From NCBI RefSeq assembly GCF_964204645.1, contig NC_134035.1:6200501-6264500 (forward strand): DNA of 64,000 nucleotides, in the 5' to 3' direction. This stretch comes from Tubulanus polymorphus (taxonomy: Eukaryota > Nemertea > Palaeonemertea > Tubulaniformes > Tubulanidae). The notes under the pieces were generated by a model. The model was not told where the DNA came from and made no database searches. It saw only the letters and a program-made list of their open reading frames with translations. This document shows positions 33,009 to 55,810 of the stretch, one piece after another. Numbering within the stretch: the first letter of the stretch is position 1; every line of letters begins with the position of its first letter. A program made the position numbers and the translations under genes.

Positions 33009-33959
33009 CGTGTAGCAAAAGACGTGTACTGAAAAACGAAACTATTTTGAACCGATACATTATTATACTATACTTTACTGTCGATAGACTTGTAAACTAC
33101 GTAAATAAAATGTAAAAAAATCTTTTGATTTATACTTCTCTTTATATCTAAGGTTTGATTGACAGCATTTTACTGTTTACGGTAATGGTAACTAAGGATT
33201 TTTTTAAAAGAATTTCTATGGTTAAATGAACTCGCTATTTTGGTTACTCCTTGAGTCCGTAGCGAATGTAGAATACGTCAGCTTTTCATCATTGAAGTAG
33301 CAAGTTCTGCGTCGCTCTTTCCTTCGTTGGGTTTGCTATTCCAAGGTAATAATTACATGCATCGAATATCTTTCCATTAAGACTCCTTCATTTAAATTTC
33401 TTGGATAGCATAATCGTGACATACTTTTCGAGAAAAGTGGTAATTTTCACGCCAATTCTTTGTGACGGAGAAATCTACCGGCAATGATGTTTCGCCGTTG
33501 GCAGCAAATTCTGTTGATTTATTTTGATGATTATCATGGTACAAATATAAAAACATAATTTGTTACATAAATTATACATATAATATATGACAATCATCAG
33601 GACCTCGGAAATCATTTTATGATTGTCAGGCCGAGGCTCTGGAGCAGATCACAAATGCAATTTTACCACCAAATCCAATTATGAAAAAAGAAGATTGAGA
33701 ATGATAGAATAATTGAAATTCAAAAAAATTATGAATTAAACCTATTTTAATCGTGATTATAATCGTAGATCCTATTGTAAAACCTAACATGGTTATTTTC
33801 ACCTTGGAGACAGTGAAAGACAACGATCAACGGGTAAGACAAGGGGAAATGCTCGAGCAAACGCAGCAGGAAACTGACCAGTTATAAAGCAGAACACTGA
33901 CAATTCTATAATCCTAGTGGTCAAAAGGCTCGCATAAAACTATAACAGCGTAGATATTT
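33009..33959. other. upstream region of SLC22 copy B
   Basis: Promoter-proximal sequence for copy B followed by a plus-strand first-exon relic. It is alignable in parts with 44780-45510, upstream of copy C. Confidence 0.55.
33265..33345 (+). pseudogene. SLC22 first-exon relic, inverted relative to the array (near copy B)
   Basis: On the plus strand the peptide CRIRQLFIIEVASSASLF is followed by PSLGLLFQ and then a donor-like GGTAAT. The same block ends the extra minus-strand first exons at 55404 and 46212. The N-terminal half has no usable ATG, so it is a broken, inverted copy of an SLC22 exon 1. Confidence 0.72.
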
Positions 33960-34431
33960 TACTAAATTTAGTCTAGATTTAGATGCACTTGAGGATCCAT
34001 GGCTCCGAGACGTAAGTGTTCAAACTCAACTCGAAGTTTCTGATAAAGATATTCAATGCGACTTAGTGCAATTTGAAAAGACTTTCTGTGATGCCAGTTC
34101 TCAGTGCACGATTGAAAATACAGATTTAAACGTTTTGTCGCCGTTGGAAACTTCAGATTCGCAAACAGCTAAAAAGGAAAATTTTATTCGAAATATGATC
34201 TCAGAAAATAACCGGCTAAAATTCGAAAACCAAGAGCTCGAAAAGAAATATACTGGAATGTGCGTTCGTATTCCTGCGCTCGAACAACAAGTTTATCGGT
34301 CAATGCAGATCATGAGCAGTTTGAATATCTGTCCCAACAGTACAGACTCTGGGACAGCGCGCCTCCCGTCTGATATTGTCAGAAAATCAAAGAAAAGGCA
34401 CTCAAACGGCTATAGAAAAAAATGTATTTAG
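33960..34431 (+). pseudogene. unidentified coiled-coil ORF fragment, possibly transposon-derived
   Basis: An open frame of about 150 codons runs on from upstream of the ATG at 34066 (peptide DLDALEDPWLRDVSVQTQLE, then DIQCDL). The middle part, ENFIRNMISENNRLKFENQE followed by LEKKY, should form a coiled coil. The C-terminus is basic (KSKKRHSNGYRKK). Repeated VQT/SSQC/IQC motifs with a coiled coil occur in some transposon-encoded proteins that pair a THAP or HTH domain with a DDE domain, but I see no catalytic domain. I do not recognise the protein. Confidence 0.35.
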
Positions 34432-34856
34432 TGGGTTTCTTGTGTTTTGCTCACGTCCGCAAGCACGATGAAATCATTTAGTACATATTTGAATTTATTT
34501 GCCAATATCATGATGTATGAAAACTAACTAATTGCTTAGTGCATGTCTGCGAGCATGATTAATGTTAATTGAGATCGAATGGAAATAGAATGACAAAGTA
34601 AGATTAGACTTGATGTATGTCACAGTAGATAAAAAGAATTATATACATATTACAGTATATGGGATTGAATAATATGAACACATGTACGCAACAGTTGCGG
34701 TATAAAATGTAAATACGTAATGATCGAATTAAAAGGATTATTCAGTGTACGTCCGCTGATTCCTTTACTGCATCGCATACGAAGAAAATAATGATTTTTC
34801 TAAAACCTAGAATAGACTATGTGTCATTTATGTAATTTAACTGTTTTTGTATTTTC
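34432..34856. other. spacer, no gene seen
   Basis: AT-rich sequence between the coiled-coil ORF and the satellite-armed foldback element. No supported feature. Confidence 0.4.
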
Positions 34857-35688
34857 TATGGTGGCTGATAAGGGCCAGAGCGTAAAATTTGGCGCGCCAA
34901 AACGGAGAAAATTCCGTTTTGGCGCCCTCGCCAAAACGAAATTTCGTTTTGGCGCCCCCACCAAAACAACGAAAAACGTCGAAATTTCTCTAAAAGTTCG
35001 TTCTGGCGCGCCAAAACGGAGAATATTCCGTTTTGGCACCCCCGCCAAAACGAACTTTAAACCACGTAAAATAATTCTATATATACGTAAAATATTTTCA
35101 TATATGCAAATTTATGCAAATTACACACAAGATCAACGCGCCAAATTGAAAAACAATTTTACTGTGGTTGAATGCTTGTTTTGGCGGGGGCGCCAAAACG
35201 GAAATAACCGCGCCAAAACGAAATTTTCTTAGTTTTGGCGCGCCAAAACCAACTTTTAGAGAAATTTCGACGTTTTTCGTTGTTTTGGCGGGGGCGCCAA
35301 AACGAAAGTTCGTTTTGGCGGGGACGCCAAAACGGAATTTTCTTCGTTTTGGCGCGCCAAAACGAACTTTTAGAGAAATTTCAACGTTTTTCGTTGTTTT
35401 GGCGGGGGCGCCAAAACGAAAGTTCGTTTTGGCGGGGGTGCCAAAATGAAAGTTCTCTCCGGAATTTTCTCCGTTTTGGCGCGCCAAAACGAACTTTTAG
35501 AGAAATTTCGACGTTTTTCGTTGTTTTGGCGGGGGCGCCAAAATGAAAGTTCGTTTTCTTTGTTTTGGCGCGCCAAAACGAACTTTTAGAGAAAATTGGA
35601 CGTTTTTTTTCGTTTTGGCGTTCTGGCGTTCTGGTGCCCTCATTTACATACCATGAATTTTACGCTATGGCCCTTATCAGCCACCATA
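34857..35688. mobile_element. foldback element with satellite arms full of GGCGCGCC palindromes
   Basis: The ends tatggtggctgataagggcc and its inverted copy match those of 22959-23184. Between them the sequence is built almost only of ttttggcgcgccaaaa, ttggcgggggcgccaaaac and aacttttagagaaatttcg, with a higher-order period near 120 bp in the right arm and inverted units in the left arm. The left end has lost the tcctggtatgtaaatgagg segment that the right end keeps. ORFs predicted inside are a by-product of the repeats. Confidence 0.88.
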
Positions 35689-36076
35689 ATTTTCATTTGT
35701 TCTGAACATTTTTCTAGTCTTCATTAAGCATTCGTGCACGATAGCGCACACTAGATGTGCACTCGTGCGCACACTGAAGGCAAATGGCTTAGATTACAAG
35801 GTAGGAGTTTGTTGAAAAGTAGAAGAGCATTTTGTTGCTATTATTAAAACATAAGGATTTATAAGGGATGGTTAGCGTAGTTCAGGAGGGAATAGAATAG
35901 AAGTTGTAGGACTGAACATACCAAATAGGGTAAGGTAAGAAGCGGGTGAGATTATGGTTTAGGAATGTGAGAAATATACGAATTAGTATATAAGTCTAAG
36001 GTTTTTGGATCAGGGAAAGAACTGGAGGGAGTTGAGAAAGAGAGGGAGAAAATGCAGAAATAATGTAACTAATAGT
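35689..36076. other. spacer, no gene seen
   Basis: Purine-rich sequence with small gaggg and gaaag runs before the Penelope-like terminus. No ORF or repeat with support. Confidence 0.4.
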
Positions 36077-36216
36077 ACGATAACCACACTCAAACGTGGT
36101 GAACGGATAATAGGATAAAAACCCACTATATTGAAAGAATTTAAAATCGAGAATTTATTTCTAAAATGTAAAAACACAACGTTTCGATCTCACACTAGAG
36201 ATCATCGTCAGGTGAG
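36077..36216 (-). mobile_element. Penelope-like element terminus (copy 2)
   Basis: Second copy of the 18959-19120 segment. It shares gataaccacactcaaacgtgg and the acgtttcgatctc...gagatcatcgtcagg end. It lies between SLC22 copies B and C and has no attached RT ORF. Confidence 0.6.
36181..36214 (-). ncRNA. hammerhead-ribozyme-like motif (copy 2)
   Basis: Minus strand: CTGACGA, stem GATCTC/GAGATC with loop TAGTGT, then GAAAC followed by GTTGTG. The loop differs from copy 1 while the core and stem are unchanged. Fold and cleavage are inferred, not shown. Confidence 0.5.
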
Positions 36217-36419
36217 CCAATGTAACTAATATAGGAAGGAAATAAAGAAAGACTTGTTATCACTTAATATCCACAGTGGTACAGCATTAGTTAGAACAAC
36301 AATTGAGGACAGTCAGTGGATACAGCACTGGTTGCGAAGAACGTCAAGATATAACAAGTGGGGGAGAATTCAGTGGCATAACAATTGGTAGAAATTGTTA
36401 AGTACCATTACAGCAGCAA

Positions 36420-36915
36420 GATTGAACCACTTTTCTCGCAAGAATCATAACCTACACCGTGTACGTCCTGATATGATCTATTTGCATCACCTAACCTGTA
36501 TTGCGCATGTAAAAATGTGACAAGTTACAGACTGAGTGAGAGTCTCGGGTAAGAGATAATAGGGCTACATGAAGATATTCCATGAAGAATAATTCCTGTG
36601 ATTATTACCTTGGAATAGCAAACCCAACGAAGGAAACGGTAAAGCATATCACACTACCTATATGATGAGAAGTTCCATCGTGAAGCGGACTCGAGGAAGT
36701 AATCTGTCTGAGCTAGGTCCGCACCTGTCTGCGAGCACTGCAGGCTTCGTGATAAAACGTTTGAAACGAATGGGAAAATTGTAGAGATATTTTGTTTTTA
36801 CGCGGAGGTATTAAACACAGTATGTGGTAATACGATGTAAAGAGGAAATTTCAGTATTAGGTCTCAATTCATCATTAGGGCGCCCTAATGGTAATTTGAT
36901 ACTTGATACAGTAAT
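36420..36915 (-). pseudogene. duplicated promoter/first-exon block with a deleted SLC22 exon 1 (upstream of B)
   Basis: The block aligns with 46075-46535 and, from the exon on, with 55380-55800. On the minus strand the exon piece (about 36605-36675) keeps the 3' end encoding PSLGLLF and a donor, but its middle is deleted and contains stops. The 5' part, with gcgccctaatggtaatttga and ccccagctgac, is conserved in all three blocks. Confidence 0.7.
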
Positions 36916-36950
36916 TTCCCCCAGCTGACACAGCGATTACATAGGAATCC

Positions 36951-37706
36951 GGGTCATTATACCTCCGCCCAAAATACCTCCACCCAAATAAACCACACCG
37001 AGAATCCTTCGCCCAGAATACCCTCATATGTTTCCAAATTACCTCCAGGCCCTAGATCTATTGGGTTTATGCCTGAAGGACAAAAATTAGGAACCTTTAG
37101 GAACCCATCCAAGTTTGAATTTACAGGTCATATTCAAATAAACCAAAGTTCTGTACCGGTAGTTTAAAAGTAGTTAACAAAGTATAATGTTAATTTCAGT
37201 ATATTGTTCGAAGATCATTGATACAGTTAAATGGAAATGAACTGAATTCAATGTGTATACCGAAATGTAATACATTGTTTTCTTAGATTATAGGACTAAT
37301 CAATATTCTATAACCTAAATATTGAATTGTTTATAGAGAAATCTAGTATTAGATTAAAGACATGAGAAAAACTAATTAACATTCTATAATCAATATCTCG
37401 TTGTTTATTCAAATTGGGTCGATTTGTAAATTTCCCAGCCATAACTAATTGGAAGTGAACATTGTCATTAATTGTTTTTCAATTATTCATCAGTAAAGGC
37501 TTATATATACCGTAATACATTATATATGATCCTATACATGTATAATAGTCAATATTGGTGGTACTTTATACATCTGAATAATAGAATTTCTTTTAATTCT
37601 TGGTGGAGGTATTTTGGACACATATGAGGGTATTCTGGGTGGAGGAATTCTGTGTGTGGGATTTTGGACGGATGTATTTTGGGCGGAGGTATTATAGGCG
37701 TATCCC
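36951..37706. mobile_element. ~756-bp foldback element with CCTCCGCCCAAAATA-rich ends
   Basis: The left arm (36951-37047) holds tacctccgcccaaaatacct and ccagaataccctcatatg. The right arm (about 37600-37706) is its inverted counterpart. Each arm is itself a short tandem of tacctccnccnaaaata. The interior is AT-rich and non-coding. It was inserted just after the duplicated first-exon block. Confidence 0.87.
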
Positions 37707-37999
37707 TTTACATAGCGAATGGCTGTTATCGCGATGTTGATATCAACGTATAAAGAATAATGAAATTAGGAAAATGAAAGGAAAGTGTTAACGGTGGCAG
37801 GTGTCACCCTGATATAAGTCACACATTTCATAATCATATACATACCAATTTCATATTGAATGGTTCATAATATTTCATATCTCTTTCTATATGAAATGCT
37901 TAATAATAATAATAATAATAATAATAATAGTATTAATAATATAATATAACTTATGAATACAGTACAATATGTGCTTTATCGCAATCAACATGTCAGACT
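37707..37999. other. AT-rich spacer with (AAT)n microsatellite
   Basis: Holds a (AAT)n run at about 37901-37930. No other feature seen. Confidence 0.6.
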
Positions 38000-38358
38000 A
38001 CTCATTATGTATAGGCACTTCGCACCCGGTTCATTAAACCATATTTTAGAATAAGACCAAGTGCCTTCAAACTGATACAATTATTAAACTCTAAGAGCAA
38101 ACAGCTCTGTAACCTGTCTCGCTTTATACAGCAAGGATCAAAGTTTCTCTAACTCATATTAAATATGTACTGTTCAATGCCCGCCTTAAGCTATTGTTGA
38201 TTGATAAGTATTCATGTATTTCTTCTCATTTAAACCGTGTTTGTATGAATTCTGTAAACTGCATGGGTACGTGTACAATGTATGAACCTGTTTTTTGTGC
38301 TCTGTGCTAATGTAAATTTTGTGGAGCAATAAACTAATTGTAATTGTAATTGTATTTA
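38000..38358 (+). mobile_element. probable retroposon 3' end with (TTGTAA)n tail
   Basis: A non-coding segment ends in caataaactaattgtaattg followed by further tgtaat units, a short microsatellite tail typical of CR1/L2-type elements. No RT sequence is attached, so this is a guess from the tail form. Confidence 0.35.
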
Positions 38359-40429
38359 AAGTGATTAGCTCTAGCCTGTGCTCATCATTAATCAATTTGT
38401 GTCTCGCAAACATGTCACTAGGTGTTAGTTTGTGAGTCCTGATGTCTGCAACTTGTCTGACACCTAGTTCTCACTTTATACTAATGATTCTGTATATAAA
38501 GACTATGTTAAGTTATGATAAACACTCTCATTCCGGGATGCAATTAAGATTGTACATATAAGGTTTAAAATGCCTTGTTGTTCCTGATGGATGGAATCCT
38601 GTAGCGCCTGGTTTCAATGCTTGTTCTCCAGCCAGCCTGCCGATACAACAAACCGGCCGGTCACAGAGGAAAGGCATTAATCGCGGTAAGTATAAACAAG
38701 AAAATTAATTTTGATGAATTATTTGACGCCTGCGATAAAAACGTAGAATTTTTGGGATAAGCTAATGTGGAATTGCAAACTTGAAATCGAAGTTTTAAGA
38801 AATTTGGGGAATTATAAGATTTGGCGATTGGGTAGATACAGAGGTCTTCTCGACTCGGTAGTGGTTTTTTTATTGAAAATTGTCAATAATTGATAACTTG
38901 CGACCGACTTCATTCACTTTTTCCTCTAAGCTGGTCTGCGCAACTTCATTGCCTCCATGGTTGAGGAAGAGCTCTTCTGATGTCTGCGATCGACTTAGAA
39001 GCGTGTGGTCTAGCCAGCCGGCCCCGGTCCCGGTTTGGCAGTCACTCCATATCCTCCTTAATGTCATTCAAAATAACTTGTTTATGTTATTCTGTATGAA
39101 TTACGCATGTGTTTTGTATGTTGTATCTTCTTAGTTTAAGATTTGTTACTTTATCAAATTTGGGAATTTTATATGTAATAAGGATCAATAAAGAATTTAA
39201 TTGAATTGTCACCTAATACACATGCCATCAGAGGAAGCGGAGCCGAATATGATAGGTATGCTAAAATTGCTAATCTCATGAAACCTGCATACCCCTTATA
39301 TCGAACATATTTTCTAAAACATTTGAATATTGAAATTTTTTGTTGACACATTTTTATATTGACCGCTTGTAGCCGCCGATGAAATTCACGTCGGCCCTAC
39401 GCAGAGCGTAGATAGCTACGTCATTCCACCAGCATCTCCATGTCAGGGTCTTTCTTTTATGTCAGACTTCCAAATCGTGTATACTTCCGCCATTTTGACC
39501 GAATAATCCAATTTGTTTGGTGAACGGAAAAAATGGCCAAGGAAAATATCATTTATCATTTCATCAAATTATCATTTCGATTTATGTCTGCTTCTGATAT
39601 AATCATACATCCATTACTATTACAATACGTCTTCTAATAATATTCAATGCAATATAACATTTCGACGTTCAAATAGAGCTAATTATATAATCACAGAACG
39701 ACATTCTTTGTCAGTGGTATTTTGCCAAATAGCTTGTATGTGACGTTTTGCACATCGATTTACGGTTGTCGTTTGTAAAATGACGCTGAATGGTTCACAC
39801 TGTTTAGGTTTCATAATGGTAACGTTTTATAAGGCGTCAAAAAATAATTCATTGATATTTACTCGGAGGACCAGAAACTGTCAGAAACTGTCATTCTTGA
39901 ATTGATGTAAGAACTTTGATACACGTATCCGTAACGATAATCCAGGATCACACACGAGAGACGGCGATCGGTATAAATATATACAAGTATGTATGTTAGT
40001 ATCTTATACACATAAAGGTTACTTTTTACGATAAACAAAACGGTTCCGCTCACTGAGGCCTAACATAATGAGTTTATAAATGGCGGAAACGTTGAAACGT
40101 ATGGATGAACCTCTCCTGGATTAATGCTAGTTTCTGAAGCTTTAAGGAACGCTCCCAGACTTAAACGTCTATTGGTTTTCACTTTTGTGTGTGAGATAAA
40201 CTGCTCGCAAGCGCTCTAGAACCAGGGGCCAGTTTCACGAAAAAGTTTAACTCAAATTTTTTGATTAATTGCCATTGGTTACTTCATGTTTTCAATGAGG
40301 ACAACAATTCAAACTTAACTGTTTTAAGCTTACACTTTTTTCGTGAAACTGGGCCCCGGTGATATAACTTAATTCTGCATGTGAAAGTCTGAAGTTAACT
40401 CAAAGTAGGTCCCCGTAAATTATTAACCT
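38359..40429. other. spacer between copies B and C, mostly unassigned
   Basis: Contains a GC-richer stretch at 38880-39060 with a minus-strand ORF of 65 aa that I do not recognise, and a CCAGTTTCAC MITE (40225-40357). No host gene is evident. Confidence 0.4.
40225..40357. mobile_element. MITE-like repeat, ends GGGGCCAGTTTCACGA
   Basis: ggggccagtttcacgaaaaa at the left is inverted as tttttcgtgaaactgggccc at the right. The inner arms contain gtttaa/ttaaac. It is distinct in sequence from the CCAGTTCC and CCAGTTGCTC families but shares the CCAGTT end. Confidence 0.85.
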
Positions 40430-41235
40430 CGCCATACATCACGCGTATACTGGTTATAGTGAACTGGACTCGTCACGCATGAATGCGAGTAACCTAGATC
40501 TACTGATCGTTCTCTCAGAATACGTGTCTTTTTGTGTTTACTAGAGATATGGATCTGTCGATAGAAAGAGTGTCCGATTTCGAAAAATTCGTTAGAGAAG
40601 CACTGTCAAAAATGCAAACAACTGTTATGAAAATAGATGCCAGGCAAGATAAGTACGAAAAATGGTGCAGCAACCTAGACAATACGATCACCAAACATGA
40701 TGCTGCACTGGATGAACTTACAAAATCAGCTGAATTTGGGGAAAATTGGGGAAAGTGCAAATAAAGCTCTATTTTTTGTTTTGAAAAAGGTCCAACAGTA
40801 CTCTTTAGATACAGACATAGGTTTAGAACTTTTTGATGCTATGGTCGAACCAATCCTTACGTATGCATGTGAAATATGGGGTTACGAATCAACTGCTATT
40901 TTAGAGAAATCAAGACCAATTTACTCAAAAATGGAGGGCCGATTGCCGCAACAGCTCAAAAGGACTACTGTATTCTATTATCAAAACCAAACTTAAGTTC
41001 GAACCATATTTGCATGACCTCCCTATTTCATTGCGACGCACATTGTGCCGGTTTAGATGTAGTAATCACAAACTACCGATTGAAACCGGTAGATATAGTA
41101 ATACACCTCAAAACCAGAGATATTGTTTAAAATGCAACCAAAATGTAATTGGAAATGAATATCACTTTATTTGAATGTCCAGAATATACAATTCTAAAAT
41201 CACAGTGCTTACCAAAATTTTGTTTAACAAGACCT
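40430..41235 (+). mobile_element. internally deleted LINE family L-A copy
   Basis: The 5' part encodes a coiled-coil start MDLSIERVSDFEKFVREALS (40549-40764), which could be the ORF1 N-terminus. It runs directly into the C-terminal part of the RT protein: VEPILTYACEIWGYESTAIL near 40850, then LRRTLCRFRCSNHKLPIETG and YCLKCNQNVIGNEYHFI (to about 41165), followed by a stop. Most of the element is therefore deleted. The CEIWG block is shared with 27197-27397. Confidence 0.75.
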
Positions 41236-42026
41236 AATCATTATAAACTGATTATAAAAAGTGACGAGTAAATGACGAGTTGATAAAAGTAGATTTTCAA
41301 TAAAAACATAATATAAGAAAAGTAATTCAGTTTTCAATATCAAGTGTTAGCAAAATTTATTAAGCTTTTAGTATAAAAGAGTTAGCAAAGTGTTAGCACA
41401 TTAGTACAGTTTTTTGATATAAAGTGTTAATTCAGTTTTTCAGATAAAAGTGTTTGTAAAGTGTTAGTGAAAGTGAAGTTTTAATATATTAAGTGTTCAT
41501 AAACACACGCTTACATAAAAGTTTGTGTTTATTTGATTATGACCGGGACTGATATTCTTTAGCATGCAGTGACTTAAAAAATCAAATTGTTGCTAGGAAT
41601 TTGAATTGAAGTTTTATATAACTATAAAATATTAAAATAGAACAGCATATGACCGGATAAATGAGAGTGAAGCGAGGATTCGGCGATGATCCAACAGGAT
41701 CGTTAGTGTCACTGTGTTACCGCGCTTCAATTCCTTCTTCATTTCAATTAAATTCGAGTAAACTTTTCTGATTTTGGTAAATCAATTTGCAGTGAAATCA
41801 ATACCATACACTGAGTTAGAAAGTTAATCTAATATCTATCCGATCACTCGTTTGATAATTTTCTGATTAGGAAGCCTAAAAATCAAGTTCAAATTTCACT
41901 GAAATGAACTGCTTTTCAATACGAATGGCTCGATGTTTTGTTGCACCATCTTGTGTTGCCGGTATCCCGCGCACTTTTAGCCAACTCGGGTTTTCACCTC
42001 ACTTTAATGGATTATCTTGACTTGAA
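41236..42026. other. 3' flank of SLC22 copy C
   Basis: From about 41515 on it aligns with the 3' flank of copy A (16230-16590). Shared landmarks are ctgatattcttt-like sequence, aaatcaaattgttgct, atgaccggataaat, and cttttagccaactcgggttt. 41340-41480 is a degenerate tandem of an agtgttagcaaa-like unit. Confidence 0.7.
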
Positions 42027-44779
42027 TTAACGTATGTGTTCTGGTTCATGATGTCCATCGACAGTAGGGTTTAACAAGTTGTTGTTTTTAGGTCGGTCGA
42101 TGTCACTGATAGTTTGAGGCATCGGTATACCTCTAGTTTCCGGTAAGAGTAACATCAGCAAAGCGGTAACCAGTCCAATACACCCGAGAATTACGCCAGA
42201 CAACCAAGATATATATTGAGCCTGAAACAATTCGATTGTAATGTTGAAATGTTAAACAAGTGACAGGATTGAAAATGTAGGAAATAAAAACCTACCAAAT
42301 AAGCGGCGAATGGTGCTGTCATCGAACCTACTCGGGAAAACGCCGATGTGATTCCGATCGCACGATTTCTGTAAAAGAAAAAGACAAGAAGATTGCGAAA
42401 TACTGAACTCTATCTAAACCTATATGTACAACCACACTTGTATACCTGAAGTTAGTCGGGTAAAGTTCACTGGTATGGATGAAAATAATACCATAAGCTG
42501 CAGTGCAGCAGAATTTTCCAACGGTATTAAACGTCATAATTAACGGAACCAAATTCGTCTCTCCTTGAAATGAAAAAGCATATCAGAGTTTTCTGGTGAA
42601 ATATCTGTAAGTGATCTGCTTATTCATATCATGAATCCAGATATACATTTTGTACGTACCGACACTTTCAGGAGCGAACGCCACAGCTATTAAAACTAGA
42701 CCGGTTATAGCATAAAGCAACATCAACGATACTCGTCTTCCAATACTGAAAAATATCTTCCATATTTAATCTGATTTATTCATGTTATGTCAAGGCGTCT
42801 TTCTATTGATGACTTTAAACTACAACTTACAACAAGAGTAGTAGATGCATCGTAAGGTAACTTGGTATTTCAATAGCAGCACTCAAAAAATAATTAGCAA
42901 ATCGATCCCCGGCCATAACTGTCGTACTCAGTGTCAACCCGTAATAAGTGAGACTTGTAAAAGGCCTACACAAATGAAAAAAAAAACAATATCGGTAGTA
43001 GAGAAAACGAAAGCGTCATCCAAATAGCCTGAATTATTCAGAAAATAAAATAAGTAACCGGTCTGAATATCTGTTTATACATTATAGGTCTTAAATAAGA
43101 CGCGTGTCTATGTTCGTATCATGGATGTGCATTGAACAATACCGATACTTACCAGATGATAGATTCCAGTATCGTGTATCGACGCAGTTTTGGATGTTTG
43201 AGAATCTGTAAAATTCCAATCGTTCCATTATTCGAGTCTTCACTAAACTTAGAACAGCCGACCATATTTCTGAACACTAGTTTAACACTATCCACAACCG
43301 CACTTTTATCTGAATATAACGTATTTAGGTCTGTAATAGATTCATTTTCATGAATGAATTGAAATATATCAGGTGAATTTCATCAATCTACTTTGAGTTT
43401 CTGTGGTTTTTCTAATGGCAGAAATGACGGCTGGTGAAAGCGAGCGTTTGTTAAATTTCGCTGCTTTTCTCAAAATTCTGATCGCTTCTTCGGGTCTGGA
43501 ATTTGCGACGAGCCACGCCACAGATTCATCGTAAAACCTAATTACAAAATGATATGATGAACATCTCCAATTTCGAATGGATATTTCATTATCGAAAAAT
43601 TCTATTTACCAAAGTCCTAGAATGGTGAAACAAGAAATGATACCCCCGACGATTTGCAGGTATTTCCAGTGAGTGAAATAGTAGCCGCAAACTCCAGTTA
43701 AAAGCATTCCCATCGTAAATGAAATCATGTGAAATGCGTTAGCGAATGAACGTTGATCGGTCGGAAACCACTCACAAACCAAAATATAACCAACTAAGGT
43801 AGCGCCCTAAAAGAAACAACCAAAGCATGGCGGAAGAAAAAATAGTTTCTCGTAAAATGACTTTTCTATCTTATAATTCTTCAGCTCTTTGTGTAATTTG
43901 TTTCTCTTGGACATTGGATGAACTTCTTAATAAACTTCAGGGATTTTCTAGGAATTGACTAGGAATTTAAGGCTTTAATTCATCATCGATAATAGAAATT
44001 ATTCACCATACTGAAAAGTCCGCTAAAGAATTTCATTGTAATGAAAAATGTTTGGTTGACAAAAATGACAGAAAGAAACATCGAAACAGCGAACAATAGA
44101 GAACAGACTATATACGGGATTTTCCTTCCAAAATAATCCGACCAAGGCGGCGCAACCACACTTCCGGCCAAGATACCCCCGAAATATATCGACATCGCTA
44201 GAGCGTTCATGTGATTGAATTCACAAACCCACGAAAACTGAAAATAGATAACTCATTTTATCATTTTTCTGGTGATTGGATCATGAGGATTAATCTGCAG
44301 AATGACTGACTGACCTGTTCGGTAAGAGTATGATAACCGTGTGACTGGTAATAGTAACCGTTTTGACAGACGACTGTGGTATTATCTGTAATTGACTTGA
44401 ATTGTCGACACTGATCGAATTTAATTTCTCCATCCTCACTAGTTGCATACGGTATCGACTGGTTCACTGTTTGATTCGCCGTAGGCAGTTTACAATGGTG
44501 TTCTGGAATCCATGCTGAATATTGTGAAAATATGAAAATTTTTCACTATCACGTTATTATGTAATTATGCAGTTCAATGTTAGTTGAAGAAAGTTGAAAT
44601 TTAACGTCAACTCAGGGCCTAATTTTCGGAATACATGTAATAAGATGTTGCTTACCTTGAAATATCAGGCCGAATGTACTTATAGCCGATGATGAAGACG
44701 CTATTTCAATAATAAACAACTGCAATATCTGATATCTTCCATATCTGCCTAACTCCTTCAAAGCGGTTTCTACTTCCAT
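42027..44779 (-). CDS. SLC22-family organic ion transporter, tandem copy C (11 exons)
   Basis: Intact member, predicted 553 aa. Exons in transcript order: 44656-44779, 44315-44514, 44007-44237, 43610-43806, 43392-43537, 43153-43309, 42831-42965, 42660-42745, 42446-42563, 42296-42368, 42027-42221. The start is MEVETALKELGRYGRYQILQ. The extracellular loop begins AWIPEHHCKLPT. Loop 2-3 is PPWSDYFGRKIPY. The C-terminus has PETRGIPMPQTI and is two codons longer than in A, B and D. In exon 7 it reads MAGDRFANYF where the other copies have MAGGRFANYF, which puts a charge in a predicted membrane-proximal segment. Copies A and C share AAYGxIFIHTSELYP in exon 9, and their 3' flanks align. Confidence 0.92.
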
Positions 44780-46074
44780 CGTGCTGTAAAAAACCTCTAC
44801 TGTAAACCGAAAATATTTCGAACCGATATCATGCTTTAACTAGACTATACTTTTAACAAACTTGTAAAACACGTAAATGTATAGTAAAAAACCTTTGATT
44901 TCTGCTTTTCTTTACATGAAGGATACGACGGACAGCATTTACTTTTTACTGGCTAAAGTTATCCTAAACTGTTATGTAGAATTTCTATGATTTCAGTGAT
45001 GCCAGTTGGAAGTTTGTGTTGTCGAAAATCTTTTTACTTGTTTAATCATTTTACTTAAATATTTTCTTATCTCTTTTTTGATTTTATGATCCGAAATCGG
45101 AAGCAAAGATAGTGATTGGTCGGATTTGCATAATTTTGCTTTAATCGAATTATTTGTTTGAAGGTGCAGACCTAGCTGAGAGGTTTTGAATCCGCAGCGC
45201 GATGGAATCAAGAGACTCTTTTAAAGGATTTAGGACGTTACGGGAAATATATATAAAATGTTTTAGGGAGAACTTTTAGGGAGTTTTCGCATCACCCTTT
45301 CCTTCTTTGAGTTTGCTATTCCATCCGATATTCATTGAATAACTTTTCGTTAAAACACCTCCATTTGCTTTTCTTGGGCAGGCGAAAACAGGTCATACTT
45401 TGCGAGGAAAGTGGTTCTTCGTGGTTCCCGCCTATTCTTCCTTCTCTGATGGAAATAGTTTTTCTACTGCCAAGCATATTCTGCCTTGAACAGCAAATTC
45501 AATGGATGTTGAATGTTCAGTGATTTTTTTATTAAGTTTAAGTTTAGTTTATTTGCTCAACAATAAGTACAATTGCACAGAGCACAAAATGTATAAATTC
45601 AATACATATTATACAAATACTAATAATTAATATGATAACAATAATTTCAAGCGAAGGCTGGTAAGCATTTGTTCAAAAATATAGATAACTTGATTAAAGT
45701 TTTTCTGTTTGAAATTATGGCAGCTGTAGGGTAACGTCAGTTGGTGTCGCCAATAGTAACTTGGGAGACATTTACTTCTTTGAACTTGAAAAAGGGGCAA
45801 ACCAAAAGAAAATGAATTCATCTCCTACAGCCGCTAAATTACACTTTCGACATATTCTGTATTTCCGTTCAATTTTGAATTAGAAAAAATCTTTATTATG
45901 ATTAGGGAAACTTAATCACGATTTGGGTCAAAACTGTAATCGAAGTTAATCACGCTCAAAACTTGCAGAATTTTAATGTTTTGTACAAACATTTTGAGCT
46001 GGTTTCGCAGTCAATTTCAGCGCAAATGTTTTATCTCAATTTCTAATTCCAGTATAACTGCAGAACAATTACAA
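44780..46074. other. upstream region of SLC22 copy C
   Basis: Promoter-proximal sequence of copy C. It includes an inverted first-exon relic and aligns in parts with the regions upstream of copies B and D (shared gcagacctagctgagagg). No further gene is seen. Confidence 0.5.
45215..45330 (+). pseudogene. SLC22 first-exon relic, inverted relative to the array (near copy C)
   Basis: On the plus strand aaggatttaggacgttacgg encodes KDLGRYGKY before a stop. After a frame change, VFASPFPSLSLLF follows. This matches the block at 33265-33345 and the exon-1 consensus. It is clearly broken and oriented opposite to the tandem genes. Confidence 0.75.
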
Positions 46075-46535
46075 GATTGAAGCACTTTCTTCGCAAGAAT
46101 CATAACCTACACCGTGTACGTCCTGATATGATAGTGAGAGTCTCGGGTAAGAGATAAGCGCTACATGAAGATATTCTAAGAAGAATAATACATGTAATTA
46201 TTACCTTGGAATAGCAAACCCAACGAAGGAAACGGCGTAGAACAACTCACTACTTCGATGATGAAAAGCCGAACTATTTGATATTTGCCGAATCGTCCTT
46301 AATCCTTAGAAACAGTCTGCACTTTCATCACGCTTCGGAATCTACCTGCGACCGGGAGCGGCTTTAAGCTATTACTAGACCCACGATATGAAGACGCGGA
46401 CGCGGAGGCATTTTGACACTTTGTGGTAATACGATGTACAGAATGAAAATTACTGTATGAGGTATCAAATCATCATTAGGGTGCCCTAATCGTGAATGAT
46501 TAGACACCTGATACCTTAATCTACCCCAGCTGACA
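46075..46535 (-). pseudogene. duplicated promoter/first-exon block with a stop in SLC22 exon 1 (upstream of C)
   Basis: The minus-strand exon (about 46212-46333) starts MKVQTVSKD, then TAA where leucine is expected, then GRFGKYQIVRLFIIEVVSCS and PFPSLGLLFQ up to a GGTAA donor. The exon has the same length and phase as the normal first exons, so one base change explains its loss. Flanking sequence matches 36420-36915. Confidence 0.8.
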
Positions 46536-46784: not shown

Positions 46785-47934
46785 ATGGGTTCATTGGATA
46801 GGAAGTGTTCTATCAAGTTTCCTCTGAATGAGGTAAACGGAAAAATTCTTCATCAAGATGTAATTAACGCTATAAAGGACAGTGCCGACGGTGACGTGAG
46901 TAAAATCGCAGCGATTCAAATAACGTCAAAATTTTCTGAAACAATCCGGATTAATCTTTCGAGGGAATAAAATCACTCCGGATGATGTAGATTTAACCTT
47001 TTTGTCTGTGAAAATAGTCGATGCTCCGTATGAGATGTCGGATCTGACCATTGTCAACTTTATTAAAAATTATGGTGATTATGTTGAAGGATCGGTAAAA
47101 AAAGGCGTGATAAGGGACACTCAAATATATACTGGGACCAGATATTTGAAATTGAAACAAGTCAATAAAGTTATTCCAAACTTCACATCAATCGATGGAT
47201 TCCGCGTAAGAGTGTACTGTGAGGGTATAGGGTGTCAACATTGCCTTGGCGATCATCGCTCAGCTGACTGTCCGTCACGATTTAAGTGTTTCAAATGTGG
47301 CGCCGCAGAGCATAAAGCTCGTGATTGTACCGTGACTCTGAGCGACACGATATCCAACGAAGCGCGTGACTATTGCGAGAAAACGTCAAGCGAACCGCTG
47401 TCCAATACTATTACAAATAATGTATTAGTAATCGGTGATTCTAACCTCCGTGACTTCGAGTTTCCGAATGGCACGATTATTTGCCAGCCTGGTGCTAGCG
47501 GTGAAAAGATTTCATCGCTTCTGAATAAAGCTGACAATCAGATTCTAGATCGATCGTCGATTACTGACGTTATTCTCCATTTAGGTACAAACGATATAAG
47601 TAACAACAAAAATGACAGTGACACTGTAGTGGTGAATCTGTCCTTAGCCATGGCCAAAACAACGGAACATTTCAATGAAGCCCAGATTCACTTCTCTAGT
47701 ATCATTCCAAGAAAAGGTAACTCCAACAACGTAAAAGAGTACAACAGCCTTGCAATAGCAGTTAACAACCATATCGGGAAACTATGCGCGGAACAGAATA
47801 TCATGTTTATTGATAATGACACTATATTGAAACTTAAACCGTCTGGTAAAGCTTTGGACCACTTTTATTCGCCGACCGATAAAAGAGTGAAACCGGCAAG
47901 CTTGCATTGCTTAAACACTTTTGTGAGGCAATAG
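46785..47934 (+). pseudogene. LINE ORF1: CCHC zinc knuckles plus SGNH-hydrolase-like domain
   Basis: The first part (46785 to about 46960) continues after a one-base frameshift into 47002-47934, reading through ITPDDVDLTFLSVKIVDAPY. The N-terminal half resembles a gag-like nucleic-acid-binding domain and ends in two CCHC-type knuckles, CQHCLGDHRSADC and CFKCGAAEHKARDC. A C-terminal domain follows with VLVIGDSNL, a GASGEKI glycine block and LHLGTNDIS, which match blocks I, II and III of SGNH esterases as known in CR1-type ORF1 proteins. In the last block, PASLHCLN, the His is present but the Asp usually three residues before it is not evident. Its role is probably RNA binding and particle assembly. 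Confidence 0.8.
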
Positions 47935-48078
47935 ATGGCGTCACTAGTGATGCTTTCTGCACACCGACCTCGGCAAAACGAAAGGAGAGATCACTATCCG
48001 GAACACCACCTTCAATAGAAAAAACCAGGAAAAAACAATACGTTGAATATTAGTCATACACCATGACTTGTTATTTGT

Positions 48079-50986
48079 ATGAAAAGCTCAGTAACTGATA
48101 TACCTTGTACAAACAACAGTTGTTTGTACTTTAATGTTGACGAGGATTCTCCTCTTGAATGGGGAAGTCTATCCATCATTTCTCATAACATCAGAAGTGT
48201 CAACAAAAATTTTGACAGTTTAACTGATTTTTTGAATTGTTGTAATGGTCAATTTTCGGTCATTGGTTTGACCGAGACTTGGACTAATTCAAATAATTCT
48301 AACTCCAATTTGTATAGAATTAACGGTTACACGAGTATCTTTAAATCCCGCGCCAATGGTCAACTTGGTGGCGGCGTAGCTCTCTTCCTAAAGGAAAATT
48401 TCAATTTCAAAGTACGGACAGACTTATCAACTAGGAATCATACTTTCGAATCTTTATTCATCGAAATTGTTCTAGATAAAAAATCCAATATTATTATTGG
48501 AGTAATATATAGACCTCCAGGAGGAAAATTACCAACTTTTCAAGATGAATTTGAAGTTTTAACGGCAGAAATTACTCGCGAGAACAAACTTTGCTACCTG
48601 GTGGGGGACTTTAATATAGATCTCATGAAATATGATACGCACAAACATACTGAAATATTTGTCGAATCTTTATTTTCTCATTCTTTTTCACCTTTGATTG
48701 ACAAGCCAATTCGAGTAACTTGTGACTCGACATCCTTAATTGACAATATTTTTTGTAACGATTTGCGACATGTTCACAAATCTGGGATTTTTATGACCGA
48801 CCTTTCGGATCATTACCCAATATTTACTATCTGCAGTGGTGATCAGCCTCTGTCTGACAGACAACCTTTTAAAACTAGAATTTTCTCGCAGCGCAATATT
48901 TCTAATTTCAACAGATTACTAATGAATATTAACTGGAGTGAAGTGTATTCATCTGATAATCCCTCAGTTGCTTACACTACTTTCATTGAAAAAGTTACTT
49001 TAGTTTTCAATCAAGTTTTCCCTCTGGTACCAGTTAATCATATTAATCCCTCATTCCATAAACCATGGATAACTCCTGGTATTATCGCAGCAATTAAAAC
49101 AAAAAACAACCTTTATAGGAAATTTATTAGAACACGTTCAGAAAAAATAAAATCAAAATACAACTCGTACAAAAATCTCATTTCAAAGCTTATTAACAAA
49201 GCCGAATCTAATTATTATTCTGAAAAATTGCTCGCTGCTGGAAATGATATGAAAGAAAAGTGGAAACTGTTGAACACAGTTTTAGGTAGAAACATTTATT
49301 CTAAAATGCCTAATTCTTTTACTTCCGATCAACGTGTTATTTCTGGTAATATAAACATCGCCAACGAGTTTAACAATTTTTTTGCAAATATTGGTGAAAG
49401 GCTTGCTACTCAAATCCCTGATACAGAGCAATCCTTTCATCAATATATGAATAAACGTGTCAATGAAAGTCTATTTCTCTTTCCGACTTCACCTCATGAA
49501 ATAAGTGATGTGGTCTCGGGTTTCCCCTTAAAGAAGAGTGCTGGTGTCGATGGTTTGAGTATTTTTGTTATAAAACAGGTGATTGACATCATTAAGTTCC
49601 CTTTATCCCATATCTTTAACCGCAGTCTTCAGACTGGAATAGTTCCCAATGAACTCAAAATTGCGGAAGTTTGTCCTTTGTTTAAATCCGGAGCCCCTAA
49701 TTCTTTAAATAATTATCGACCCATATCTTTGCTTCCTAGCTTCTCAAAAATTCTGGAAAAACTAGTTTACAACAGATTGGTTTCCTTTTGTAACAAACAG
49801 GATATTGTAATCCCCGACCAGTTTGGCTTTCGTTCAAAACATTCAACAGATTTGGCATTAACCAAGGTTGTTGATAATCTTTCTGAAGCCTTGGAAAATA
49901 AGAATATTACTATTGGATTATTCTTGGACCTGTCTAAGGCATTCGACACCGTTAACCATGACATTTTGCTAATGAAGCTTGATTATTACGGAATCCGAGG
50001 TGTTCCTCATGATTGGTTTAAAAGCTACCTGACTGACAGGAGTCAAGTTTTAAGTTTCAACAATACCTTATCGTCTCCATTAAATGTGTCAATTGGTGTA
50101 CCCCAGGGTTCTATTCTAGGCCCTTTGCTCTTTTTATTATACGTTAACGATTGCGTTAATGCGTCCAAATTACTCCATTTCATCCTCTTTGCCGATGACA
50201 CGAATTGTTTTTATAGTAACTCTTATATCAAAGAATTGGTTTCCATAGTTAATTCTGAACTGGCGAAACTTGGCATCTGGTATCAAGTAAACAAACTTTC
50301 AATAAATATTGCGAAATGCCACTTTATGATTTCTGGTCGTGTAGATCACTTTAATTCTTCCATTTGGTTAAATGGAGAATAAATCAAACGTGTACATAGT
50401 ACGAATTTTCTTGGTCTTTTTATAGATGACAAATTAAATTGGGATGTCCATATCAAATATGTCTGCAGTAAAGTGTCACGCTCCATTGGAATTTTAACCA
50501 GATTAAAAAAGCATTTCCCATCAAATATCCTTATTACCCTTTATTATAGTTTTGTTTATCCTCATTTACAATATTGTAATTTAATCTGGGGAAGTAATTA
50601 TGCAAACAAGCTTAATCCACTAATTTTACTACAAAAAAGCAGTAAGAATAGTTAATAAGTCTCATTTCCTAGAACACACTGACCCTATCTTCAAGAAATT
50701 GAATATCCTAAAATTTAGACATATTACAAAATTTCAATTATGTCTATTTATGTTCAAATTCAATAATTCAAAATTGCCAAATTCCTTTAATCGGTATTTC
50801 AAAAAGAATGTTGATATACACTCGTATTCAACCAGAAATATGAATTCTTTTCGTGTTGCCAGATTTCGGACTAACAAAACACAATTCACAGTAAAAATTT
50901 CTGGTCCTGTTGTCTGGAATTATTTGCGTGTAATTGACCGCCTGAGTGACTACGTGTGTGGGTGCATGTTGGGTGAAGGTGTATGA
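48079..50986 (+). pseudogene. LINE ORF2: APE-type endonuclease and reverse transcriptase
   Basis: The long open part is 48079-50382 (767 codons). Endonuclease blocks: SHNIRS, LTETW, VGDFNIDL and LSDHYPIF (about residues 34-255). RT blocks: LKIAEVCPLFKSGAPNSLNN, YRPISLLPSFSKILEKL, DQFGFRSKHSTDLALTKVVD, LFLDLSKAFDTVNHDILLMK, GVPQGSILGPLLFLLYVND and the catalytic FADD near residue 703. At 50380 a TAA interrupts the frame, which then stays open to an A run near 50632. There one extra base shifts it to the frame of 50699-50986 (the GPVVWNYL region). The C-terminus after that looks altered. Copy not expected to be active as it stands. Confidence 0.93.
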
Positions 50987-51158
50987 CTGCATGTGTGTAT
51001 GAGTTGAGTGAATCGGTGTATGCTAGGGGATTAGAGATGTTATAAGCCTTCATTGGCTTCATCTAATCTCCTCCACATTATATTAAAACATTTCATATTT
51101 GTATATCTCTTTATGACATGTTGTAATTTTATTGTGGAAATAAATTTATTATTATTAA

Positions 51159-51991
51159 ATTTACGTGCGCATGCTATAATTCTCATTTAAGTTTCACATA
51201 ATGCAGGATTTTGATACCACCAAACCTCCTTGTTGAAATATCGAGATTAAAAGTCGAGTTTAAAAGTGATTTCGTTCACGGAAGAAATGTTCAAAGACAA
51301 TGAAATATAAAAAATCCATAAGAACAAACAGTTTCATATTTCATCTATATCAATCATGTTGAATAAGTCGAACGTCTTCGGGTTAACATATATATGCCCC
51401 TTCTCAAGACAAGTTACAAATAATGCAAAACTACAGTACGTTGTGATATAAGTTTATAGAAAGTGGTGCTTAAAATAGCAGAAGATTACATAATAACATT
51501 TTGAATCAACAACCAGAACAGGCCGGATTAACGGAATACATTTAAAGTGAATGAGGATCCATTTCGAAACAATTGTAAGTTTAAGGACGGCTTTTCTAAT
51601 TGGAAATATGTTTAGTCATACGAGAGAATGCGCAGAGATGAAAATACGTGATCAGGTGCATTACTCGTTTAACTCCGAGCGTCAGGGCATAATCCACCGA
51701 ACTCGCCCACGACGCCTAGAACATTTTCATGATTTTTCGGAATTTTTCCAACGGCAATTTGAAAATGTATTTAGTCAATTTATTTCGCAAATGATATCTA
51801 TTCCATTCCATGATTTTGAATCTCGGAAATCACGGAGAGTTGATCATAGTTAGATAATGCTAATACAATTACTTTTATTTGGGAAAACTATTGAATATTC
51901 TATTGTATATGTTGTAGGACTGGCAATAAGCAAAGTAAAGAAAACTAATAATTCTAATTATGAATCTATTGCTGATTACCTCAGGTTAAAA
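51159..51991. other. 3' flank of SLC22 copy D
   Basis: 51613-51810 aligns with 28850-29280 beside copy B, and the last ~60 bp before the stop of D match those of B. An open frame of 100 codons (51551-51853) covers the duplicated part. I do not recognise it, and the copy near B is broken. Confidence 0.6.
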
Positions 51992-54944
51992 TTAACTAAT
52001 TTCTTCTAGTCGATTTTCATCGACAATTGTGTAAATCAAGTTGTGTTTAGGTCGGTCGATGTCACTGATGGTTTGAGGCATCGGTACACCTCTAGTTTCC
52101 GGTAAGGGTAACATCAGTAAAGCGGTAACCAGTCCAATACACCCGAGAATCACGCCTGGCAACCAAGATATAGATAGAGCCTGAAACAATTCGATCGTAA
52201 TGTCAAAATCTTAGACAAGTTACAGGATTGAGAATGTACGAGATAGAAACCTACCAAGTAAGCGGCGAATGGTGCTGTCATCGACCCTACTCGGGCAAAC
52301 GCTGAAGCAATACCTACAGCACGGTTTCTGTAAAATAGATAGTACAGTGATTAGGCCCTTTTTAATAACTTAGAGTACGGATCCGCCTCCCCGAATTCTG
52401 CAGAGAAAATAAAATATCATCAAATAAAAAAATTGAAAAATCAAATTGTTTTCATCACAATTTTTCAATAGAAAATGATTTTAAATCTTGTATCTTGTAA
52501 AAGTTATGTTCATCTTAATTTTCGATATCATTTGCAAAAAAATCACCCATAATTTGAATAATATTCATCACCATTTTCACTCCGTTTTTATTTTTCTCTG
52601 CAGTCCTTCCGAGGTTTTATGTGAAAAAAAAAACATTCGAATAATAAAATATTTTCTATTTTCATTTTTCCTGTTCCCTTCCATCTTAAAACGCCTATTA
52701 TCAAAAATCTTTTTTTCAATAATTATTTTTTCCCATCACCCTCCCACTGTTTTCTTGAAAAATCCGTACTCCACGTTATAAAAAATAGGCCAAGGGAATG
52801 ATTTTCTTGTTTAGCGGAAGAATCTCACCTGAAGTTAGTCGGGTAAAGTTCACTGGTATGGATGTAAATGATACTAAATGCTGCAGTGCAGCAGAATTTT
52901 CCTGCAGTATTAAACGTCATAATTAACGGTACCAAATTCGTCTTTCCTAGAAATACAAGTTGGTCCCTACATTACACAAGATTTAAAGACATTTTGTGTC
53001 TGTAGAAACTTCCCAGTATGTGATAAACATACCGACGTTTTTTGGACAGAACGTCACAGCTATTAGAACTAGACCGGTTATAACATAAAGTAACATCAAC
53101 GATACTCGTCTTCCAATACTGAAAAATGCAAATGCATGTACACTTAAATCCAATTTTCGATTCGCAACTTTTTAAAGATTTCAACTTACTACAGAAGTAC
53201 GAAATGCACCGCTATGTAACTTGGTATTTCAATAGCAGCGCTCAGAAAATAATTAGCAAATCGACCTCCAGCCATTACTGACGTACTTAATGTCAAACCG
53301 TAGTAAGTTAGACTTGTAAAACACCTAGAAGAAAGGGAAATTCATGAAAATATGAAAAGTGGAAGTTCCATCCACATTATTCATTGTATGAATGTATTAG
53401 TGTGTACCAGATAATAGCTTCTAGCATCGTGTATAGACGCAGTTTTGGATGTTTGAGTATCTGTAAAATTCCAATCGTCTCGTTATCCGAGTCTTCACTT
53501 CCCTTAGAACAGCCGACCATATTTCTAAACACTAATTTAACCCTGTCCGAATTCTTATCTGAATAAAACATACTTTGGTAACTTTAAAATTCATTTTCAT
53601 GACTGTCGGGTATTTTTAACAATTCACCTTGTTTTTCTGTGGTTTTTCTAATGGCAGAAATGGTGGCTGGTGAAAGCGAGCGTTTGTTAAATTTTGCTGC
53701 TTTTCTTAAAATTCTGATCGCTTCTTCGGGTCTGGAATTAGCGACGAGCCACGCTACAGATTCATCGTAAAACCTAATTACAAAATATGTGTAATATGAT
53801 GAAGTTTTGAATGTACATGTTGTCATTTAGAAAAATCTATTTACTTTATTCCTAAAATTGCGATACAAGGAATGATACCCCCAATGAGTTGCATATATTT
53901 CCAGTGAGTGAACAAATAGCCGCAAATTCCAATAACAATCATTCCTGTTGACCATGTGAGCATGTGAAATGTGTTAGCGAATGAACGCTGATCGGTGGGG
54001 AACCATTCACAAACCAAAACATAGGAGACTATGGAGGCACCCTAAAAGAAACAACCAAAGCAAGTAAGCAGAACATCTTCCTCGCAAATGATCACCGATT
54101 TTTATATCTATTCTTTGGACTTTTCTGTAATTTCTTCCTTGTCCATATTGTATAAATTTTGTTTTGGGCATAAATTCATCGTCGATCACAGAAATCATTC
54201 ACCATATTGAAAACTCCGCTAAAGAATTTCATTGTGAAGAAAAATGTTTGGTTGACAAAAATGACTGGAAGAAACATCGAAACGGCGAACAATACAGAAC
54301 AGGCTATAAACGGGATCTTCCTTCCAAAATAATCAGACCAAGGTGGCACCACTATGCTTCCGGCAACTACACCTCCGAAATATATCGACATCGCTAGAGC
54401 ATTCATGTGACTGGATTCACAAACCCACGAAAACTGAAAATAGTTAAAAATCATTTTATCATTTTTCTTTTGATTGGATCATTAAGATTTCTGCTGAGTG
54501 ACCTGACTGACCTGTTCGGTAAGAGTATAGTAACCCTGTGACTGGTAATAGTAACCGTTTTGACAGACGACTGTGGTATTATCTGTAATTGACTTGAATT
54601 GTCGACACTGATCGAGTTTAATTTCTCCATCCTCACTAGTTGTATATGGTATCGACTGGTTCACTGTTTGGTTTACAGTAGCAAGTTTACAATGATGTTC
54701 CGGAATCCATGCTGAATTTTTACAATATAACATTATCGTTATTAACCGCCTACGAACCAGATGATTCCTGACTTTTAGGGCTTACTTTTCGGACGATACG
54801 CCACATAAGACATTATTTACCTTGAAATATCATACCGAATGCACACGCAGCCGTTGATGAAGTCGCTATTTCGATAATGAACAACTGAAATATCTGATAT
54901 TTTCCGTATCTCCCTAAATCCGTCAAAGAGGTTTCAACTTCCAT
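51992..54944 (-). CDS. SLC22-family organic ion transporter, tandem copy D (11 exons)
   Basis: Intact member, predicted 549 aa, the most diverged of the four. Exons in transcript order: 54821-54944, 54512-54711, 54203-54433, 53845-54041, 53628-53773, 53408-53558, 53190-53324, 53033-53118, 52829-52946, 52255-52327, 51992-52180. The start is MEVETSLTDLGRYGKYQIFQ. Exon 6 is two codons shorter than in the others. Across the exon 4/5 junction it reads GIKFYDESVAW, where the others have GIWFYDESVAW, a Trp to Lys change at the cytosolic edge of a TM segment. Exon 4 also differs (MLTWSTGMIVIGICGYLF). The signatures PPWSDYFGRKIPF and PETRGVPMPQTI are kept. Intron 9 holds about 0.5 kb of AT-rich sequence. 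Confidence 0.91.
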
Positions 54945-55379
54945 CGAGTTGCAAACGACCTGTATCATCAACCAAAACTATTTCGAACCGATATTATCGA
55001 AGCAGTGTTATACTATAATGTCGTAAAATACGAAAGACAACTTGTTGTAAAATACGAAAATGTAATGTAAAAACCTTTCGAATTCTAGTTTTCTCCATAC
55101 ATTCAAGATTTGACCGCCAGCGTTTTATTATTACTGAGAAGTTACTGTAATTTTCTGTGTCGATTTTCAATGGTTTAATGATCGAGTTTATATTGTAAGC
55201 AGGACAGAAATCTTTTACTTGTAACATGATTACATTTCTTAACTTTGTTTTTCATTTTGAAATTGGAAATCCGTTGCAAGGACATAACGGTTTGGTATTC
55301 GGTCGGATTCTCATTATTTAAAAAAATCTTAATCCAAGTATTTATTTGCAGATGCAGACCATGCAGACCTAGCTGAGAG
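54945..55379. other. upstream region of SLC22 copy D
   Basis: Aligns in parts with 44780-45200 upstream of copy C. The gcagacctagctgagagg landmark is at 55360-55380, with a small internal duplication of atgcagacc. It should hold the promoter of D. Confidence 0.5.
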
Positions 55380-55810
55380 GAAGAATAATTCGTGTAATTG
55401 TTACCTTGGAATAGCAAACCCAACGAAGGAAGCGGTGAAGCAAAACTCACAACTTCGATATCGAAAATCCGAAATATTTGATGTTCGTCGTACCGTCCAA
55501 AATCCTCTAAGATCTGCTCTCCAAAACGTTTCTTTTTCCAGAGGACTCAATGAGTGATCTCTGCGAGCATTCCAGGCTTCGTGGTAAACCTTACAGGATC
55601 CCGATACGAGAAAATTTAACGTGGTCGCAGAGGTTTTTGACACGTGTTTTTTGTGGTAATCCAATGTACAAAATGTAAATAATTGTATCGGGTGTCAAAT
55701 GGTGATCAAATCACCATTAAAGCGCCCTTATGGTGATCAAATCACTGCTACGTCGCCCTAATGATAATTTGATACCTGATACAATAATTTGCCCCAGCTG
55801 ACTCAAATAC
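55380..55810 (-). pseudogene. duplicated promoter/first-exon block, exon 1 without an ATG (upstream of D)
   Basis: The minus-strand exon (about 55404-55525) encodes EQILEDFGRYDEHQIFRIFD, then IEVVSFASPLPSLGLLFQ, and ends at a GGTAAC donor in the same phase as normal exon 1. No in-frame ATG precedes it: the position of the ATG in the related block at 46.3 kb reads TTT, and a TGA lies upstream. The upstream part (gcgccct...ccccagctgac) matches the blocks near B and C. Confidence 0.8.

Follow-up and report, generated by a model that had tools for sequence, protein, structure and literature searches.

Broken second first exons with a shared promoter-like flank upstream of tandem SLC22-like transporter genes in Tubulanus polymorphus

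At the vertebrate Ugt1 and Gcnt2 loci every variable first exon has a promoter of its own, and relic or pseudogene first exons have been reported there (PMC1885805). The arrangement described here resembles such UGT1-type clusters, without being a full member of the class. The likeness lies in alternative first exons with a conserved upstream motif or promoter and shared downstream exons, and in birth-and-death evolution that leaves pseudogene and relic first exons (PMC1885805). The differences are that here the whole gene has been duplicated too, there are only two types of first exon, the exon encodes just ∼41 residues, no gene has two intact first exons, some of the relics are inverted, and splicing of 1b is predicted. 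The gene bodies are like those of SLC22 transporters, of which OCT2, OAT1 (SLC22A6) and the carnitine transporter OCTN2 are solved relatives, whereas an apparently decayed second promoter and first exon is a feature of the genes studied here. A narrow, title-level check of the SLC22 literature turned up no title on a decayed second promoter or first exon, which is not proof of novelty.

We analyzed a window of 64,000 nucleotides from Tubulanus polymorphus (C11:6200501-6264500) and searched the genome to which it belongs (267.8 Mb in 77 contigs). Exon-by-exon tblastn placed four tandem transporter genes, A to D, in the window (Table 1). Each begins with an ordinary first exon, 1a, whose peptide is MEVET..LGRYG.. 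and whose donor phase is G|GT. The joined exons of gene D matched the MFS family profiles MFS_1 (109.7 bits, cut-off 33.4) and Sugar_tr (74.3 bits, cut-off 22.3). Against the PDB, gene D matched 28 distinct sequences, of which the best 26 are SLC22-type (OCTN2, OCT1-3, SLC22A6, A11, A12/URAT1 and A17) and the last two are GlcP and SV2B. The best of its 14 NCBIfam matches was TIGR00898 (2A0119), at 270 bits versus a cut-off of 550.75, with a query that lacked the residues at exon junctions. Judged by sequence, the gene bodies are SLC22-like MFS transporters.

Table 1. Genes and exon 1b copies in the window (positions are those of the window)
Feature	Position	Strand	Content	Evidence
Gene A	16657-22528	−	exon 1a (22405-22528) to last matched exon	exon-by-exon tblastn
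Gene B	30139-33008	−	exon 1a (32885-33008) to last matched exon	exon-by-exon tblastn
Proximal inverted 1b copy of B	33262-33362	+	3' part of exon, donor GT kept; 5' part lost	
B block	36595-36929	−	near-palindrome, promoter-like segment and exon 1b (36609-36678)	
Gene C	42099-44779	−	exon 1a (44656-44779) to last matched exon	exon-by-exon tblastn
Proximal inverted 1b copy of C	45161-45325	+	part of own 5' flank; interior altered, donor destroyed	
C block	46191-46534	−	near-palindrome, promoter-like segment and exon 1b (46205-46328)	
Gene D, SLC22-like	52058-54944	−	exon 1a (54821-54944) to last matched exon	exon-by-exon tblastn
Remnant in D, 5' flank of lost inverted 1b copy	55362-55380	+	19 letters identical to C	
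D block	55391-55802	−	near-palindrome, promoter-like segment and broken exon 1b (55405-55528)	

A genome search with exon 3 returned 45 rows, of which 13 places at 70-100% identity are the close members of the subfamily: A to D, four genes at C11:5.83-5.85 Mb (G1 to G4), b1 (C11:5.70 Mb), one gene on C7, one on C4 and two on C9. The remaining rows were a second exon fragment on C4, at 66%, and 31 others at ≤46%. G1/G2 and G3/G4 form two head-to-head pairs (C11:5827001-5855500). The gene on C4 resembles a truncated pseudogene, since a search of the stretch C4:20870501-20879500 recovered none of exons 7-11 and its exon 3 falls into two pieces, the second of which contains a TGA. Synonymous divergence over exons 3-11 among B, C, D and G3 is 0.25-0.42. 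For exon 2, dS was below that of exons 3-11 in 17 of 17 gene pairs tested, often much lower (0.10 versus 0.32 for G3/G4) and barely so for D and one of the C9 genes, C9i (0.53 versus 0.54). Gene conversion centered on exon 2 is possible in this subfamily.

Genes B, C and D each have, on their upstream side, a block composed of a promoter-like flank and a second first exon, 1b, which is broken in three ways; no such block was detected upstream of A. The first-pass annotation had marked five exon-1-like places in this region, three on the minus strand and two on the plus strand, and all five are borne out by tblastn, DNA self-comparison and a 1b profile. With exon 1 of D as the query, tblastn matched 55519-55406 (−), 46328-46206 (−), 33270-33344 (+) and 45212-45250 (+), and a peptide from the C block matched 36678-36583 (−). 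The blocks align with one another, at 86% identity for B versus C and 83% for C versus D in the DNA self-comparison, where the inverted copy at 33.3 kb also matched the C block at 86%; these matches span 91-138 bp, with E-values from 5e-23 to 8e-40. Four window copies that were also training members of the 1b profile scored 81-96 bits. The copy at 45.2 kb, which lay outside the training set, scored 21 bits (E 8e-6), compared to 3.5 bits for the best reversed-sequence control.

We regard 1b as a second type of exon, distinct from 1a. Its 3' end reads ..PFPSLGLLFQ|G, the intron of the better-kept copies begins GTAAYAATTACATG, and its donor phase is G|GT, the same as that of 1a and in line with the splice phase originally noted. 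Direct copies, which share the orientation of the gene, lie ∼0.5 kb (D), 1.45 kb (C) and 3.6 kb (B) upstream of 1a, and inverted copies lie ∼0.3 kb (B) and ∼0.45 kb (C) upstream of it; B, C and C9i have one of each. The initial description of the blocks as partly inverted can be refined, in that the plus-strand pieces are a second copy of 1b, that of C carrying flank of its own. The remnant in D is a weak match to the profile (E 0.46). When letters of the inverted 5' flank pieces were shuffled, the D-C and C4-C scores were each reached in 0 of 2000 trials and the D-C4 score in 32 of 2000, for stretches picked after the match had been seen. Together, the copies in B, C and C9i and the 19-letter piece in D suggest that the inverted copy, too, is old.

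Relative to the intact 1b of G3, the B copy keeps its ATG, lacks 54 nt in frame (70 versus 124 nt), and contains a TAG and a TGA. The C copy has TAA at codon 10, where G3 has TTA. In the D copy the frame is open from 55546 to the donor, but no ATG follows its last in-frame stop. The donor GT is kept in all three. The internal deletion in B, the TAA for Leu in C and the missing ATG in D had thus been correctly called from the outset, the TAG and TGA of B being additions to that list. Beyond the window, the C4 copy shows frame damage and extra exon letters and has lost its donor, the direct copy of the second C9 gene (C9ii) has TT in place of the donor GT, and that of C9i has an early stop, as read by eye. 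The donor is also lost in the 45.2 kb copy and in the inverted C9i copy.

The copies were initially described as independently inactivated. That the lesions of B, C and D differ agrees with this view. However, the TAA of C recurs at the corresponding alignment position in the two C9 copies, where the surrounding frame is shifted, and because of this the losses are possibly not independent. The common TAA may be either inherited or recurrent, and it allows that some 1b copies were already dead before the C and C9 genes separated. Codon replacements relative to G3 1b amount to 11 non-synonymous and 3 synonymous in C and 16 and 4 in D; these counts are not clearly unlike those between 1a exons and hence do not date the losses. 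Comparisons of 1b with G3 by codon position and by synonymous versus non-synonymous counts were uninformative.

In G3 (C11:5.848 Mb), 1b is intact and is the sole exon 1 detected. None of its 11 exons contains a stop in the parts that were matched, and 1b, with the same G|GT donor as 1a, joins exon 2 in frame; the splice check covers this 1b/exon 2 junction. G3 stands head-to-head with the 1a-type gene G4, and a partial, inverted copy of its exon 1 (94.5% over 165 bp) lies ∼220 bp upstream of G4 exon 1a, placed like the proximal copy in B. No gene with both 1a and 1b intact was found among the 13, so this is at most a decayed or ancestral case of variable first exons.

An exon-1 tree of 15 sequences, drawn from a set of 21, united G3 1b, the C block and the D block in one clade with 100% bootstrap. 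AU tests, from which the B block was left out, rejected both the grouping of G3 1b with the 1a exons of its own cluster (p 0.0002) and the derivation of the C and D blocks from the 1a exons of their own genes (p 0.0006). The position of the 1b clade relative to 1a is unstable: all 1a exons form a clade in the 21-sequence tree (98%), but with 15 sequences 1b groups beside the 1a of C4 (62%). The body of G3 falls within the clade of genes at 5.70-5.85 Mb (100%), between the 1a-users G4 and G1/G2/b1 (80%), in a tree where 6 of 10 nodes have only 58-68% support. Recombination between G3 and another cluster could also have given G3 its 1b end.

Across the genome, a 1b block lies upstream of 7 of the 13 members, namely B, C, D, the C4 gene, both C9 genes and G3. 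A 25-nt signature of 1b (≤3 mismatches) had nine matches, all beside subfamily genes, versus none for the backward control. Genome DNA searches queried with the copies of C and G3 likewise found 1b copies adjoining the subfamily, and one of these searches also listed three 1a exons. The copies outside the window are those of G3 (C11:5848339-5848462), between G3 and G4 (partial) and on C4, and profiles detected two direct copies and an inverted one at the C9 genes. As with A, no 1b was detected upstream of the C7 gene, G1, G2 or b1, for which the C7 and b1 stretches reach only ∼2.8-2.9 kb upstream; G4 has 1b only as the partial inverted copy. The searches made found no 1b away from the subfamily, with the caveat that diverged copies could be missed. 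A genome DNA search with the promoter of D, which is less sensitive than profiles run on fetched loci, found only itself, and hence diverged copies elsewhere are not proven absent.

Transposon ORFs lie near the blocks, and those of B, C, D and C4 all have a near-palindrome upstream, as might be expected if the blocks were a dispersed repeat or a transposon that carries a fragment of exon 1. We consider this explanation very improbable. Genome-wide DNA and pattern searches place 1b only upstream of the subfamily, and the core of the near-palindrome has just six matches in the genome, all at those four blocks, with none for the control. These searches gave no sign of a dispersed repeat to which the matching peptides might belong, and largely refute such an origin.

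Similarity among the 1b blocks extends beyond the exon itself, through ∼250 bp of 5' flank. When a promoter+exon profile was trained on B, C and D only, it scored 216 bits on G3, 150 on C4, 73 on C9i and 28 on C9ii. Conversely, a profile built from G3 and the two C9 copies scored 116.5 bits on C, 105 on B, 102 on D and 54 on C4. Matches of these cross-trained profiles to reversed sequence reached only 3.9 and 3.4 bits. Because 1a exons score 18-47 bits with the B/C/D profile, mainly via exon similarity, the 28 bits of C9ii are not distinctive by score; this match counts because it extends through the promoter segment. Training on one group and testing on the other thus upholds the promoter-like conservation among blocks that the first-pass annotation had described. 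The flank is a putative promoter of 1b.

The blocks look like a clear but ordinary kind of relic, that of an ancestral two-promoter gene. We think it fairly probable that an ancestral SLC22-type gene had two alternative first exons, of which G3 kept 1b and its relatives 1a, with 1b decaying elsewhere. Such an ancestor is a reconstruction, since no locus has both exons intact. It would have carried a distal 1b, a proximal 1a and then the shared exons 2-11, each first exon with its own promoter. Either exon, supplying an N-terminus of ∼41 residues in the same splice phase, would have given a complete transporter, differing in its N-terminus. The gene would then have been duplicated many times, G3 losing 1a, and the others keeping 1a while 1b vanished or was left as a broken relic (in B, C, D, one C4 gene and two C9 genes). 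A second, inverted copy of 1b would have arisen between 1b and 1a, remaining in B, C and C9i and leaving a scrap in D and perhaps in C4. On this order of events, the ancestral B, C and D genes presumably used 1b and joined it to exon 2.

Of the two origins first put forward, an alternative promoter and first exon is supported by the in-phase, intact 1b of G3, by the recurrence of the block in the subfamily and by the results for the downstream exons. With 11 exon queries, tblastn detected no relics of exons 2-11 at ≥23 bits outside gene bodies in the window and the fetched regions, and five of five matches at ≥23 bits outside gene bodies in the fetched regions were to exon 1; no whole-gene relic was detected between genes. 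These data disfavor the other proposed origin, an additional gene copy. They also bear on a version of it in which the blocks are remnants of separate G3-like genes, left by tandem or head-to-head neighbors or by unequal-exchange hybrids in intron 1, so that 1b never spliced to exon 2 of a 1a-type gene. Such genes do exist, G3 having 1b only and facing the 1a-type G4, and the inverted partial exon upstream of G4 1a mirrors the proximal copy in B. Nevertheless, the body of each lost gene would need to have been removed early and cleanly, and at six of six relic-bearing loci the direct block precedes 1a and shares its orientation. We regard separate genes as an unlikely source, and prefer the ancestor with two first exons.

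Not all of the 1b sequence has diverged equally. When G3 is compared with the three window blocks (B, C and D) and the inverted copy at 33.3 kb, the last 29 nt of the exon and first 14 nt of the intron vary at 6 of 43 columns, compared to 23 of 37 columns just upstream (Fisher p 8.5e-6). Without G3, the four relics give 5/43 versus 22/37 (p 1.1e-5). Third codon positions at the exon end are invariant at 8 of 10 sites in these five copies, compared to 6 of 10 in 1a of A, B, C, D and C7 and 2 of 10 in all 12 1a exons. The 1a exons show no contrast between donor-end and upstream segments (p 0.6 to 1.0 in three sets). One caveat here is that the five copies were selected after donor retention had been seen, a choice that favors contrast. 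For all 10 aligned 1b copies, the exon-end contrast is 13/30 versus 30/37 (p 0.002), and 14 of 14 intron columns vary.

The near invariance of this 43-nt segment in five copies, on both strands, is the odd feature of these relics, and may reflect either gene conversion or a residual function at the DNA or RNA level. The relics might still serve on both strands near the 1a promoter, whether in the role of non-coding first exons or as an element for regulation or splice donation. The donor-end contrast, its absence from 1a exons, the invariant third positions and the fact that the promoter-like segment can be aligned between C9 and window genes would fit such use. Nonetheless, the contrast weakens when the post hoc choice of copies is widened to 10, with every intron column varying; the donor is gone from four copies (45.2 kb, C4, C9ii and inverted C9i); and short-tract gene conversion could yield an identical pattern. 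Continued use is, in our estimation, improbable. It is just as much a long shot that dead exons persist through a working donor end and promoter, with divergent or competing transcription setting the output of the transporter gene.

Decay of 1b from a gene with two first exons, the reading we prefer, would let one follow, within one genome, how a family with two promoters resolves into copies with a single promoter, since one gene with an intact 1b coexists with six decayed direct copies and several inverted ones. The subfamily could serve for tests of how duplicated genes divide alternative first exons among themselves, and of whether selection still acts on the splice donor and promoter of a dead exon once its frame is lost.

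Several other elements lie among the blocks. A LINE-type element occupies window positions 46924-50379 (+), between the C block and gene D; its ORFs encode a zinc knuckle (with a GDSL-like match below cut-off), followed by a 771-aa endonuclease and reverse transcriptase. Just upstream of the D block, at 55940-57440, is a Tc5/pogo-type DNA transposon with ends that look alike by eye and an HTH_Tnp_Tc5 match in the ORF at 56398-56826. A fold-back tandem array with a 114-bp unit, at 34888-35620, separates the inverted from the direct 1b copy of B, and sequence related to this array is present upstream of A, at 22956-23184.
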